Assembly: GCA_018669475.1 (NCBI GenBank)
Contig: JABHCC010000163.1
Coordinates: forward strand, 31,528 to 95,527
From: Bacteroidota bacterium
GTDB lineage: Bacteria; Bacteroidota; Bacteroidia; Bacteroidales; UBA12481
Length of the DNA: 64,000 nucleotides
Reading direction: 5' to 3'
How positions within the stretch are numbered: position 1 is the first letter of the stretch; each line of letters begins with the position of its first letter. Shown piece by piece: positions 38,905 through 64,000 of this stretch. Made by a program: the position numbers and the translations under genes. The notes beneath the pieces were generated by a model, which did no database searches, had not been told where the DNA came from, and was given only the letters and a program-made list of their open reading frames with translations.

Positions 38905-38995
38905 GTGCGATCCGGTGTCCACCAGGACAGAGGATCGAGCGAGAGGTGATGTTGAAACTCCCACTGAATGCTATGGTGTTTTCATGGTTAGCCAC
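38905..38995 (+). mobile_element. Possible truncated 5' end of a group II intron
   Basis: Begins GTGCGATCC (GUGYG 5' consensus) with potential pairing CGATCC...GGATCG; noncoding. Opposite orientation to the domain V fragment. Confidence 0.35.
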
Positions 38996-39001
38996 TGGTT
39001 T

Positions 39002-39715
39002 TCATATTCTTTTATATATTCCATTTGGTATTACCTTCAATAGTATTGCAATTAATCGCCACCTCTTAGATACGTATCCAACAGTCTTTTTCTTTTTGAT
39101 AAATCCAAAAATCTGTTTTGCTGCTTTTTCTTTAGTTGCAACCCAAAATTGCCCTTCTCCTTTTGCCATATCTGTATCAACGAATCCAGGTCTTATGTCA
39201 GTTATATAAATCGGTTTTTTCGTTTTCGTTGCTTTTTGTCTTAATCCTTCCAAATAATTTATCTGATAGGCTTTTGAAGCATTGTAAGCCGGTGCAATTC
39301 TACTACCTCTTATTCCTGCTATTGAACTTATTGCTATTAGATGTCCTTTCCCTTGTTTTTCAAAATAATTGAATGTCCAGTCTACAATTTCAGTAAAAGC
39401 AATTACATTCAATTTATTGGTTGAATTCTCAATATCAAATTCTAATTTTTCATTTAAATCTCCTGTACCTGAGCTTAAAATCAACAAATCCAATCCTCCT
39501 ATTTCATTGACTAATTCAGTCAGTTTTTCAGAGTTGTTTTCTGTTGTGCAATCGAAAGAACTAATGCTGAAGTTTTTTGAGTTCGATTCTTTTAAATTAT
39601 CAAGCTCAGTTTTTCGTCTTCCCGTAATTCCAACTTTATATTCATTCTCCACAAGAATTTTGGAGAGCTCATTGCCAATTCCAGAAGTCGCACCAATTAT
39701 AATTGCTCTTTTCAT
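39002..39715 (-). CDS. Short-chain dehydrogenase/reductase
   Basis: IIIGATSGIGNELSKIL (TGxxxGxG), SSIAGIRGSRIAPAYNASKAY (S/YxxxK). Confidence 0.92.
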   Translation of the reverse strand: MKRAIIIGATSGIGNELSKILVENEYKVGITGRRKTELDNLKESNSKNFSISSFDCTTENNSEKLTELVNEIGGLDLLILSSGTGDLNEKLEFDIENSTNKLNVIAFTEIVDWTFNYFEKQGKGHLIAISSIAGIRGSRIAPAYNASKAYQINYLEGLRQKATKTKKPIYITDIRPGFVDTDMAKGEGQFWVATKEKAAKQIFGFIKKKKTVGYVSKRWRLIAILLKVIPNGIYKRI

Positions 39716-39724
39716 TCAGTTTTT

Positions 39725-40130
39725 TTTCGGCTTGTGGCACCGGGTAGCTTACGCCCCCTAAGAACTGTACGTGCGATTTTCACCGCATACAGCTCAGGCA
39801 CTTTAAAGGCAATCACGGCGAAGTGACACCCGGCTGTTATTACTGTTTTTATTTGACCTAAAAGTAGTAATTTGGTAACATTCTTTGGCTAAATCTTCTC
39901 TCCATTTAGTTCTCTGATAGAAGTATCTGTCATATTCGGGCAGAAAAGGATTGGCGTTGGCTTTCACTTTCACATAATACTTAATGGGTACAGACGATTT
40001 TGTTCGGTACCTTTTTTAGTAATCCTCTGGTCGGTAAAATGGTTATCGTGGAAGTAACGATGATATATCCACCAACGGTTTTTATTACCGTGTTGGTATT
40101 TAGTTTGTTGTGCCATGTAAGCGGATATCA
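39725..40130 (-). mobile_element. 3' remnant of a group II intron (RT/maturase C-terminus plus domains V/VI)
   Basis: Minus strand: frame-disrupted maturase-like tail HGNKNRWWIYHRYFHDN... then KYYVKVKANANPFLPEYDRYFYQRTKWRED, followed by a domain V hairpin at 39761-39795. Confidence 0.75.
39761..39795 (-). ncRNA. Group II intron domain V
   Basis: TGAGCTGTATGCGGTGAAAATCGCACGTACAGTTCT: matches the canonical 34-nt GAGC(C/T)GTATGCG..GAAA..CGCACGTAC(A/G)GTTC hairpin. Confidence 0.9.
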
Positions 40131-40287: not shown

Positions 40288-40587
40288 TTAGCACTCTGCA
40301 ATTTTCTCCGGTGCTCTCTTTTCGAGTGCCTTATACGGGTAAGCCAGAATATCACGCTGCTGCACCTGGTCCTCAGTGGCCAAAAAAGCATCAATCAGGG
40401 TGTTGCTCAGACGACTGGGAAAACCATGGGTAATAATAACCCGGGGCTCTTCACACTGTTTGTCGCGCGGCAAGCGTATAAGCGCACGCGCATGGCTGCT
40501 CGAAAGAGTCTCCATCATCAGATCCTGTGCAACATATAGTCTCTTAAATCCATCAATAATCTGGAAATTTACATTATATACTTTGTG
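40288..40587 (-). pseudogene. Possible ParB/Spo0J-like protein fragment
   Basis: Minus frame HKVYNVNFQIIDGFKRLYVAQDLMMETLSSSHARALIRLPRDKQCEEPR...; 'QIIDGFKRL' and 'SSSHARALIRL' resemble ParB_N and ParB HTH motifs; no proper start. Confidence 0.35.
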
Positions 40588-40604
40588 TTAGCGTTTCGTG
40601 CTTT

Positions 40605-41330
40605 CTATTTCTTCTTTAAAACTTTGTCTAATACTGTATTTTTATCAAGTTTCTTGGTGCAGAAAAACCAATCTTTACAGTCAAGGTCACTATCTTCCAT
40701 TCTACCCTTAGCAGCACCACATGAACCAGCAGGGCTAATGATGACATCATCTCCTGGTCTCCAATCAGCAGGAGTTGCAACTCCAAATTCGTCAGCTGCC
40801 TGTAAAGCAACAATTACACGATATAGCTCATCAAAGTTTCTTCCTAAACTTAGTGGATAATAAATGATAGCTCTAATTATTCCTTTTGGGTCAATGAAGA
40901 AAACAGCTCTAACCGCCTTTGTAGAATCTTCATTAGGTTGAATCATTCCATATTTTTTGGCAACATCCATTTTAATGTCTTCAATCAACGGAAAATTTAC
41001 TTCAACATCTTTCATTCCCTTGTACTCTATCTTTTCTTTAATAGTTCTCAACCATGCAATATGGCTGTACAATCCATCAATAGAAAGACCTACAAGTTTA
41101 CAATTTGCTTCTGCAAATTTATCTTCCATTGTAGCAAAAGTCATAAATTCAGATGTACAAACAGGAGTAAAGTCAGCAGGGTGACTAAAAAGAATTACCC
41201 AATCGCCTTTATAATCAGCAGGAAAGTTTATATCTCCCTGTGTTGTTACTGCTTTAAATTCTGGTGCAGCATCACCAATTCTTGGCATACTAAATACCTC
41301 TTGTTCAAGATTTTGTTCCATGATACTCAA
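40605..41330 (-). CDS. Peroxiredoxin (AhpC/TSA, Prx6/1-Cys-like)
   Basis: HPADFTPVCTSEFMTFATMEDKF active-site motif; long Prx6-like C-terminus. Confidence 0.95.
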   Translation of the reverse strand: MSIMEQNLEQEVFSMPRIGDAAPEFKAVTTQGDINFPADYKGDWVILFSHPADFTPVCTSEFMTFATMEDKFAEANCKLVGLSIDGLYSHIAWLRTIKEKIEYKGMKDVEVNFPLIEDIKMDVAKKYGMIQPNEDSTKAVRAVFFIDPKGIIRAIIYYPLSLGRNFDELYRVIVALQAADEFGVATPADWRPGDDVIISPAGSCGAAKGRMEDSDLDCKDWFFCTKKLDKNTVLDKVLKKK

Positions 41331-41345
41331 TTTTAAAGTTAATGT

Positions 41346-41771
41346 TTAACATTTATCGAATGTTCCTCTAATTTGAACTACAATATCTTCAAGTTTAAAA
41401 CCCTCAAATTGTTTCTTGTTAAAATATTCTTTTAATAAAACATCTAATTCTTCATCCTTATAATCTTCTATTAAATCACACTCAGAACAATAAATATGAT
41501 GGTGGTTATCAACAATTCCATCATATCGCAAAATATCTCTGTCTGTTTTAACTTTTTTGATTAACTTATTTTCAACCAGTGTATCTAATACTTTGTAAAC
41601 AGTCCCTGTTGCAATATTTGGGTGAGATACACGAATAAATTCAATAATATTATCGGCAGTTGGGTGATTATTCAAACTATAAATAGCCTCAAGAATACTA
41701 ATCCGCTGAGGAGTAACTTTTAATCCTTTTTCAGATAACTTATTTCTAATATTTTCTATCAATCTTTTCAT
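41346..41771 (-). CDS. Fur-family transcriptional regulator (PerR-like)
   Basis: TPQRISILEAIYSLNNHPTADNI, VDNHHHIYCSECDLIEDY; co-directional with peroxiredoxin. Confidence 0.9.
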   Translation of the reverse strand: MKRLIENIRNKLSEKGLKVTPQRISILEAIYSLNNHPTADNIIEFIRVSHPNIATGTVYKVLDTLVENKLIKKVKTDRDILRYDGIVDNHHHIYCSECDLIEDYKDEELDVLLKEYFNKKQFEGFKLEDIVVQIRGTFDKC

Positions 41772-41785
41772 TAGAATATTTCCTT

Positions 41786-41798
41786 AATGAGAGTCATT
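41786..41798. promoter_or_regulatory. Candidate PerR/Fur operator
   Basis: Perfect dyad AATGA-GAG-TCATT about 15 bp upstream of the PerR-like start codon. Confidence 0.45.
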
Positions 41799-41925
41799 CT
41801 CCTTTAGTGAAAAATAAATTTAAGCAATTATTTCCAAATCAAAAAATACAGATTACATTAATTGGATAGGTCTATTTGCATGAACGCTAACCGAGTCAGC
41901 ATCCGATAACTTTCGGGTACATGAG

Positions 41926-41988
41926 GTATAGCTGATGTTTGTTAAATGCTTGCAAATCAATTGGTGGTAATTGAAATCTAATGTACTA
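41926..41988 (-). repeat. Inverted copy of the 63-bp noncoding block found downstream of the intact recombinase
   Basis: Reverse complement is identical over 63 bp to 63765-63827 (TAGTACATTAGATTTCAATTACCACCAATTGATTTGCAAGCATTTAACAAACATCAGCTATAC). Confidence 0.95.
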
Positions 41989-42015
41989 TTTCTTTTAGAG
42001 AACCCCCAAGCTTTA

Positions 42016-42249
42016 TCATGTTATCCCTAAATTGTCTAAAGGGTTCTTGATCTGATCTATTCCTTTGTTGGTTATATGAGTGTAAATCTGAAACGTCTTA
42101 GGACTTGAATGACCAAGCAAACTCTGAATATATCTTATATCAGTGCCATTGCTCAATAAATGAGTGGCAAAGGAATGCCGAAGCGTATGTAAGGTTGCCC
42201 GATCTTTTTTGCCTTTACCACCCCTGATTATTACCTTACCTTCAATACT
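42016..42249 (-). pseudogene. C-terminal remnant of a tyrosine recombinase, paralogous to 62346-63737
   Basis: Minus strand [74 protein letters not shown], lacking about 55 codons relative to the intact copy. Confidence 0.92.
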
Positions 42250-42787
42250 ATTCTTCCAGAAATTGCAAACTTCTGATTTCAGTTGTTGTAACTTCCTTGT
42301 AAAATACTACTACATCATCACCTCTGAAGATATCCTCGGGGCTATATAAACCTGCTTGAAATTCCATGATTGTGCCATCCGCAGTTTCAATGTCAACATA
42401 ACCATCCATATCTCCACATGTACAGGTATTTAATCTTCCCTCAACTGCAAGTATTTTCGCCCTGTCAGTCTTTTGTCCAGTGGAGTGTCTCGATTGAAGA
42501 TCGATCGAATATAACTGATTTTCTAACTGATAACGATAGATAATTTTGACTCTTCTCCTGATAATTTCAGATACTTCCGCAACTCTCACCATATCAGCTG
42601 AGATGCTTCCAATTATGGAATCCTGCTTGTCGTGGCTAATCACTTTGATCTGATAATCCTGACCCTGGTCTGATTTGTTATACTCAGCAACAATGCCCGA
42701 AAAAACCAAATCATCAGGCCCAATATTTTGAGTAAAAACAGGTAACCCAAACACTAAAACACTAAGTAAACTAATCAGAGTTCTCAT
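42248..42787 (-). CDS. Hypothetical secreted protein
   Basis: Signal peptide [20 protein letters not shown]; co-directional with downstream genes. Confidence 0.65.
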
Positions 42788-62345: not shown

Positions 62346-63737
62346 ATGCACATGAAAGACCTAAAAAGAAGAGAAACCAGACGAGAATCAGTGTCGATGA
62401 CTATTACAGAGCGATTTATTCTGTTAGAAATGAAAAAGAGCGATCAGGATATCCGATTTCTACGCACTCTCAGGTATGCCCGCTGGGACTCCACTGGTTT
62501 CTGCTGGGTCATCAACAATAAGAAAGAGAACCTTACGATGCTGAAAAACTACTTTGGTGATCGGCTTACAGAAATCAGCAATGAAGCAAGTTCTGTAAAA
62601 GCAGTTACATCGGCACCAGGTTTGGCTGTCAATTCAAGCATCCTTATTGTTGTTAAGTACAGAAATGGCCGTATACGATTAATATTCCGATATGACAAAG
62701 ACCTGGTCAGGCTAATAAAATCACTTCCGTTGTACACCTGGGATCAGGAAAACCGATGGTGGACCATTGCCAATACAGAAAAATCATTAGCTGCACTTGT
62801 TAGGTTTTGCGATGAGAGTGGTTGGAAGTATCAATATTTAGAAGATCTGCGACACCTCAACAAGAAACCACGACAGAAACCGGAAGACATAATTAATTAC
62901 CGTGCTGTACCTGCTAACTATTTAGACAAGCTTTCTGTGCTGAGGTACAGCATGAACACGGTCAAAACTTACAATGCATGCTTCTCAGAATTCATAAACT
63001 ACTTTAGCACAAAAGAGATCAATGAAATTTCTCAGCAAGACATTCAGGCTTTTCTGTTATATCTTGTACAGGAACGACAGGTTTCATCATCTTATCAGAA
63101 TCAGGCAATCAATGCCATTAAATTCTACTTTGAGAAAGTGCTAAATGGACCGAGGCGTATTTATTATATTGAGAGACCTCGAAAAGAGAAGATTCTACCA
63201 TCAGTTCTAGGTGAAGATGAGGTAAAAAGGATCTTAGAACAAGTAAAAAACCTGAAACACAAGTGCTTATTAATGACCTGTTATTCAGGAGGATTAAGGA
63301 TTAGTGAAGTACTAAACCTGAAGCCAATAGATATAGATTCAAACCGAATGCTCATAAATATCAGGGGAGGTAAAGGCAAAAAAGATCGTGTAACCTTATT
63401 GTCTGTCAAACTATTGGAGCTTTTGCGAGAATACTACAGAATCTACAAACCAAATGACTACCTATTCGCCGGACAAATGGGTGGGAAATACTCGGAAAGA
63501 AGTGCTCAGCTTGTATTGAAAAAAGCTGCCAAGAATGCCGGGATCAAACGCAGGGTAACTCTGCACACATTACGGCATTCCTTTGCTACTCATTTATTGG
63601 AAAATGGCACTGACATAAGGTATATACAGAGTTTGCTTGGTCATTCAAGTCCTAAGACGACACAAATCTATACCCACATAACAACGAGAGGAATAGACCA
63701 GATCAAAAATCCTTTGGATAATTTAGGGATAACATGA
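62346..63737 (+). CDS. Tyrosine recombinase/integrase with duplicated N-terminal domain
   Basis: C-terminal catalytic motifs [57 protein letters not shown]-like core-binding domain; two similar N-terminal W-D-x-x-x-x-W segments. Confidence 0.95.
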   Translation: MHMKDLKRRETRRESVSMTITERFILLEMKKSDQDIRFLRTLRYARWDSTGFCWVINNKKENLTMLKNYFGDRLTEISNEASSVKAVTSAPGLAVNSSILIVVKYRNGRIRLIFRYDKDLVRLIKSLPLYTWDQENRWWTIANTEKSLAALVRFCDESGWKYQYLEDLRHLNKKPRQKPEDIINYRAVPANYLDKLSVLRYSMNTVKTYNACFSEFINYFSTKEINEISQQDIQAFLLYLVQERQVSSSYQNQAINAIKFYFEKVLNGPRRIYYIERPRKEKILPSVLGEDEVKRILEQVKNLKHKCLLMTCYSGGLRISEVLNLKPIDIDSNRMLINIRGGKGKKDRVTLLSVKLLELLREYYRIYKPNDYLFAGQMGGKYSERSAQLVLKKAAKNAGIKRRVTLHTLRHSFATHLLENGTDIRYIQSLLGHSSPKTTQIYTHITTRGIDQIKNPLDNLGIT

Positions 63738-63764
63738 TTAAGCTTGGGGGTTTACTAAAAGAAT

Positions 63765-63827
63765 TAGTACATTAGATTTCAATTACCACCAATTGATTTG
63801 CAAGCATTTAACAAACATCAGCTATAC
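63765..63827 (+). repeat. 63-bp noncoding block, identical to an inverted copy at 41926-41988; candidate recombinase site
   Basis: TAGTACATTAGATTTCAATTACCACCAATTGATTTGCAAGCATTTAACAAACATCAGCTATAC; contains TCAATT-ACCACC-AATTGA at 63779-63796. Confidence 0.9.
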
Positions 63828-63832
63828 GTCAT

Positions 63833-63854
63833 GTACCCGAAAGTCTTCGGGTAC
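63833..63854. other. Perfect 9-bp inverted repeat (hairpin) adjacent to the conserved block
   Basis: GTACCCGAA-AGTC-TTCGGGTAC; degenerated in the copy near 41900. Confidence 0.85.
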
Positions 63855-63870
63855 TGACTCGTTGAACTAA

Positions 63871-63895
63871 ACCGCCTCCCGGCGGTGATTTTTTT
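63871..63895 (+). terminator. Rho-independent terminator
   Basis: aCCGCCtcccGGCGGtgattttttt. Confidence 0.85.
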
Positions 63896-64000
63896 AATTC
63901 TCGTAAGCATTCGGCCTAGTGCATATTCTAAAATGTGAGATTTTGTCCTATTTTTCCAGCTTGGCTTTCAATTTTGAGCAGGATTATTCAAGAATTTCCA

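Follow-up and report, generated by a model that had tools for sequence, protein, structure and literature searches.

In the integrons of Treponema, attI lies at the 3' side of intI, and the integrase keeps the IntI-specific domain. For integrons in general, this domain of the integrase is treated as defining (PMC9668308); known as I2, it is reported to dock extrahelical bases and to block exchange of the second strand, and the ability of integron integrases to recombine attC hairpins in single-stranded form is held to have come with it (PMC7790495). For Bacteroidetes proper, IntegronFinder 2.0 reported a single complete integron, that of Salinibacter ruber (PMC9024848). Our search of the open-access literature, with preprints outside its scope, returned no description of the system considered here.

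The window, i.e. the whole stretch of 64,000 nucleotides that was analysed, carries near its end an XerA-like tyrosine recombinase gene, followed by a noncoding block that recurs in inverted orientation. Very probably, in our view, an integron has its attI site at 63738-63861, with this block as the 5' part and the adjacent recombinase as the integrase. The features concerned are the following.

62346-63737, + strand: XerA-like tyrosine recombinase, 463 aa (Pfam PF00589, 1e-42; NF040815 over cutoff)
63738-63861, + strand: attI-like insertion site region, from stop codon to crossover (93% and 91% identity in two other copies, then abrupt divergence)
63765-63827, + strand: 63-bp block, 5' part of the attI-like region (exact inverted copy at 41926-41988)
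63833-63854, + strand: palindrome GTACCCGAAA-GT-CTTCGGGTAC adjoining the crossover (attI layout of homologues)
63861-63862, + strand: putative crossover G|TT (conserved upstream, variable downstream)
41892-42015, - strand: second attI-like copy (115 of 124 positions identical)
42016-42290, - strand: recombinase pseudogene, 3' part only, with an internal deletion (sequence comparison)

The 63 bp at 63765-63827 are the exact reverse complement (100%) of 41926-41988, and past one mismatch (G/C) a further 16 bases are identical, as the first-pass annotation had described; the window has no other inverted repeat of at least 25 bp. That annotation had also put the differences between the two coding tails at roughly 30 of about 183 positions, which was close: 148 of 178 alignment columns are identical (83%), with 29 mismatches and one gap. 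The noncoding sequence from the stop codon to 63861 is identical at 115 of 124 positions (93%), in keeping with the earlier observation that noncoding sequence is the better conserved; the limits given for the exact identity hold as well, but conservation ends at 63861 and not at 63827. In another genus of the window's family (G002), where only about the last 20 codons of the recombinase gene are kept, the same noncoding stretch is identical at 113 of 124 positions (91%). The suggested search of the window's own genome yielded a further copy on contig C7 with 93% identity over 55 bp and another on C141 with 79% over 85 bp, the attI-like site being present in that genome in four copies. The copies at 41.9 kb, on C141 and in G002 reach a junction with variable sequence behind it, and this recurrence within the family supports the proposal of selection on DNA, tied to the recombinase. 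A predicted hairpin at 63833-63854 is partly kept in six family copies. The pseudogene at 41.9 kb has lost its 5' part, and its internal deletion fuses the GKGKKDR motif to HTLRHSF. Other 3'-end recombinase fragments lacking a 5' part occur in G000 (C7:48803-49194, C116:19571-19735 and C185:3393-3482) and at locus L028.

Within the block, TCAATT-ACCACC-AATTGA had been read as a Xer-type core, and the block as the recombinase's own site. The block does belong to the site region, but the proposed core is wrong because the crossover, as placed by alleles, lies 34 bp downstream of the block; the arms of that core are also broken on C7 (TCATGT/AATTGA) and C141 (TCAATT/AGTTGA) and absent from homologous loci. 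When the 3' flanks of homologous recombinases are aligned, a site of the same layout adjoins them, and the objection that the block might be missing there fails for the site as a whole; the 63-bp sequence itself was found only inside the window's family. In most related loci, this site follows the stop codon within ~30-250 nt and ends in G|TTR (usually CG|TTR), after which a locus-specific gene begins. Near-identical pairs of alleles set the boundary at this point, given that unrelated sequence averages 49% identity: L090 and L091 are identical over the last 300 coding nt plus 242 nt through GTT and 47% identical beyond, L048 and L050 fall from 95% up to GTT to 53%, L076 and L101 from 87% before the junction to 52%, and L075 and L078 from 96% to 45%. 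Such allele-swap junctions, together with the family alignment, point to an attI that adjoins the integrase gene and takes insertions at G|TT. A palindrome of at least 8 bp, ending 3-12 nt before the junction, is present in 15 of 32 loci as against 1.1% of control positions; Chitinophagaceae and Pedobacter loci have no palindrome and carry a motif like GCGTACTTTTAAGTG|TT instead.

The recombinase itself stands apart from canonical integron integrases. It passes the NCBIfam model NF040815 (XerA-type) with 234.4 bits against a cutoff of 220 and fails TIGR02249 (integron integrase) with 221 bits against 265, and its catalytic residues, by homology, are R318, K343, H407, R410, H433 and Y442. In alignment with VchIntIA (2A3V), positions 368 and 384 of the query span VchIntIA positions 185 and 244, and the ~43 missing residues are, judging from this comparison, the IntI-specific (I2) domain. 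The spacing from GKG to HxLRH, counted in members where both motifs were found, is 65-70 aa in this group versus 107 aa in canonical IntI. By alignment, motif spacing and TIGR02249 alike, then, the window protein lacks the additional domain by which a canonical integron is recognised. In a tree of 98 recombinase sequences, 13 of the 14 IntI form one clade (support 99); the window protein is not among them but groups, with good support (98), in a clade of 20 rows that includes Bacteroidales, Algoriphagus, Belliella and relatives. Branches are very long and placement is uncertain for the fourteenth IntI (L142), the Xer rows and C27rec. Structure prediction (pLDDT 80) gives two similar beta-alpha modules at residues 16-167, a duplicated small alpha/beta module that makes up the N-terminal 170 aa (window 62346-62860). 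Pfam returned nothing significant for the N-terminus of the window recombinase, and for that of a Belliella homologue it returned HARP at 4.7e-4 (20.1 bits, below the cutoff of 25). The best PDB fold match of the predicted structure is the integron integrase 2A3V, followed by XerA. Homologues also occur in records from Cyanobacteria, Spirochaetales, Phycisphaerales and Neomarinimicrobiota (L061, L062, L060, L071 and L069), several of them with a hairpin and a GTTR-like junction downstream. A dif system for dimer resolution would have a single site near the terminus and no cassettes; here there are four site copies, with cassettes adjacent.

A circular cassette rejoins its own start and end in one attC, and its ends should therefore be complementary. 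In 31 of 61 homologous loci, a GTTR 9-mer within 300 nt of the stop codon has its reverse complement downstream, against 5.7% when loci are matched with other loci, and the rate per k-mer is 20% for GTTR versus 3-5% for other trinucleotides. A cassette walker traced arrays of up to 7 attC-bounded cassettes, with attC spacings clustering at 116-121, 176-185 and 38-55 nt; in genera from several families, the first cassette comes straight after the recombinase. The cassette arms (~15 bp, n=66 cassettes), in which columns 1-9 pair by selection, carry a fixed A-C mismatch at column 11, with A in 65 of 66 starts and G in 55 of 66 reverse-complemented ends, and pair again at columns 12-14 in 54-60 of the 66. 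Twenty-two native attC, drawn from 15 loci and reassembled in their circular arrangement, share a 30-pair consensus in which 91.4% of cells are paired and 25 of the 30 pairs show two-sided change, whereas partner-swapped controls are 62% paired on average and 68.5% at most. Belliella cassettes include pairs of the VbhA-Fic and Gp49/HTH toxin-antitoxin type. At L170 and L172, unlike at other loci, the recombinase and the neighbouring attC-model matches have opposite orientations.

Remains of such cassettes, and elements that interrupt them, are found in the window itself.

40587-41891, - strand: gene cassette, start GTTAGCGTTCATGC, end GCACGAAACGCTAAC (9-bp start/end complementarity)
41349-41771, - strand: Fur-family regulator in this cassette (Pfam)
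40608-41330, - strand: AhpC/TSA peroxiredoxin in this cassette (Pfam)
38987-39715, - strand: probable further cassette remnant, a short-chain dehydrogenase gene ending at AGTGGCTAAC (Pfam adh_short; cassette-end-like sequence)
63868-63902, + strand: start of an IS91-family element (TAAACCGCCTCCCGGCGG...), inserted after GTTGAAC (same sequence in ten family places)
63903-64000, + strand: end of an IS66-like element, interrupting the IS91-like element (25-bp terminal inverted repeat; tnp genes on C211)

The 9-bp match between the ends of the Fur-peroxiredoxin cassette has a chance probability of ~1.2%, and its attC is damaged; the dehydrogenase remnant has lost its start and keeps only the cassette-end-like sequence. 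Between the two lies the 3' end of a group II intron (39739-39797, - strand; Rfam RF00029, 56 bits). Group II introns are known to associate with integrons. On C141 (locus L022, 5230-6503), the block (79%) has no recombinase upstream and stands ahead of a cassette with a Fic-like reading frame (HPFMEGNGR motif, from translation), matching 9-bp ends and an attC-model match of 36.9 bits (5.6e-7); such a platform would need a recombinase in trans. At the window's end, C211 and the contig end (64000) have 141 bp in common, and on C197 the IS91-like start runs into a tyrosine recombinase reading frame that resembles the one beside an IS91-type transposase on C211. The IS91-family start (TAAACCGCCTNCCGGCGG) is preceded by TTGAAC in 9 of 10 family matches (window 63862-63902; L153-L162), several of which lie at attI-like junctions, and in at least some copies the element brings along a related tyrosine recombinase of its own; it may target att junctions. 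An IS91 terminus was considered as the source of the block and set aside, the IS91-like start lying past the block at 63868 and other block copies having no IS at the junction.

Canonical IntI scores over its cutoff in 70 of 248 genomes in a sample of the phylum, and in 1 of 296 in a sample of the window's class, which the organism names of its closest relatives indicate to be Bacteroidia. Among 18 checked genomes with the window-type recombinase, 17 have none over cutoff, the window's genome included. A covariance model of the 118-nt attC (threshold E <= 0.001, with rough E-values) matches in 123 of 149 genomes of the class, often at least 10 times per genome; most genomes are drafts, and the counts do not show which enzyme made the sites. 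Outside the class, 14 of 41 relatives of the canonical-IntI genome G158 have matches, and G158 and its five congeners gave no match with this model. Twelve regions at strong attC matches were inspected: four include a window-type recombinase, none has a better match to canonical IntI, and of those four recombinases two head the array on the same strand and two stand beside it in opposite orientation. In the Tangfeifania genome (G110:C42:69596-70534), a canonical IntI (357 bits) occurs together with a recombinase of the window type and its five-cassette array (L070), which offers a natural comparison of the two.

We propose that the adjacent recombinase would recombine attI with the attC of a circular cassette and in this way insert the cassette at G|TT (63861|63862), the substrate probably being the folded bottom strand of attC. 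Insertion at a fixed G|TT would then keep the sequence upstream constant and swap that downstream. The integron reading is favoured by the block copies that head the Fur-peroxiredoxin cassette at 41.9 kb and the Fic cassette with its attC on C141. Against it count the intact window locus, which has no visible array and is followed by transposons and the contig end, the absence of the IntI-specific domain, the lack of an array at several recombinases of the wider family, two independent loci where recombinase and array are on different strands, and the restriction of the 63-bp sequence to the family. The 63-bp part itself would probably serve as an accessory binding sequence and/or as a leader or promoter for the first cassette. 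That it owes its conservation mainly to a role as promoter, leader or RNA for the cassettes that follow, with the recombination site confined to the last ~30 bp, is possible, if in our view the lesser prospect: the crossover and the homologue-type palindrome (63833-63861) do lie outside the block, which is not common to distant homologues, but no Rfam family matches it, the only Rfam match in the window being the group II intron end elsewhere. Integron attI sites, moreover, also carry an accessory recombinase-binding sequence upstream, and the two roles can coexist.

Whether the recombinase gene and its 3' site could together be a cassette, with the block as attC, is a related question; the gene is co-oriented with the array and a site follows its stop codon, but the attC covariance model gives no match at the block, the feature predicted in common is only the short hairpin at the junction, and the block on C141 heads a cassette with no recombinase, all of which makes this quite improbable. 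A bystander recombinase, with cassettes moved by a canonical IntI elsewhere or by housekeeping XerC/D, would account for the many arrays with no recombinase within 15-20 kb and could draw on the separate Xer-like genes in the window's genome. It is unlikely given how rare canonical IntI is (over cutoff in 1 of 18 recombinase-bearing genomes and 1 of 296 of the class) and given the arrays that begin directly behind the recombinase in several families. Least credible of all is a recent segmental duplication or gene conversion between two otherwise unrelated copies, an explanation suited to two inverted copies 22 kb apart in one genome and named at the outset as a possible refutation. It would require equally conserved flanks, yet the coding flank is at 83% and the noncoding at 93%, and the block recurs in another genus (91%) and on C141 with no recombinase flank.

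If the attI reading is adopted, its wider meaning is what we favour with more reserve: that XerA-like integrons lacking I2 are a distinct class and the main cassette system of Bacteroidia, with attC in most genomes, overlooked because searches require the IntI-specific domain; that folded-attC capture accordingly needs no I2 or takes another route; and that the clinical tet(X3) came from such a platform. Given the reported roles of I2, the enzyme would have to manage base docking and the block to second-strand exchange otherwise, or use double-stranded sites, and perhaps the fixed mismatch or the N-terminal module stands in for I2. A widespread cassette system of this kind makes the I2 rule directly testable and may represent an ancestral or parallel solution. 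One reported Bacteroidetes integron (PMC9024848), set against attC matches in 123 of 149 genomes, suggests that a large mobile gene pool may be uncounted. As for tet(X3), a relative of the integrase stands directly upstream of it on Acinetobacter plasmids: in L164 (2916-5117; pJAT2044, NZ_CP104735.1), a truncated recombinase, tpnF, has 61.8% identity to that of the window; an attI-like junction, TATACGCCATTTGGCGTATA-GCCACTT-G|TTATGTGCCATTT, comes after it, and a cassette-end-like AAACGGCTACTAAC lies downstream of tet(X3). The link consists of this one recombinase fragment, a junction of the expected form and a sequence resembling a cassette end, which matches the start at 10 of 14 positions, for which reason an intact cassette is not claimed.

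Among described systems, tpnF of the tet(X3)/tet(X5) ISCR2 units of Acinetobacter (PMC7722449) shares with the window a related recombinase, the palindrome and the GTTATGTGCCATTT junction, but is truncated and moved by ISCR2; the published account names it a recombinase gene and does not present it as an integrase (PMC7722449). With XerA, the window recombinase shares the sequence family of NF040815, over cutoff, and has 5hxy and 4a8e among its best structural matches; it differs in the variable array that follows, XerA being associated with dif-type dimer resolution and no cassettes. The archaeal integrons likewise have attI immediately downstream of the integrase, but their integrases keep the IntI-specific domain (PMC9668308). 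The fullest correspondence is with chromosomal integrons such as the Vibrio superintegron, which have the same attI beside the integrase, G|TT insertion, attC-hairpin cassettes, same-strand arrays, and toxin-antitoxin and Fic cassettes, and whose VchIntIA (2A3V) is the closest solved structure. From these, the present system departs in an integrase with no I2 domain, often with an N-terminal extension of 110-190 aa, in an attI that lies 3' of the integrase and co-oriented with it, and in cassette arms of ~15 bp with a fixed A-C mismatch.
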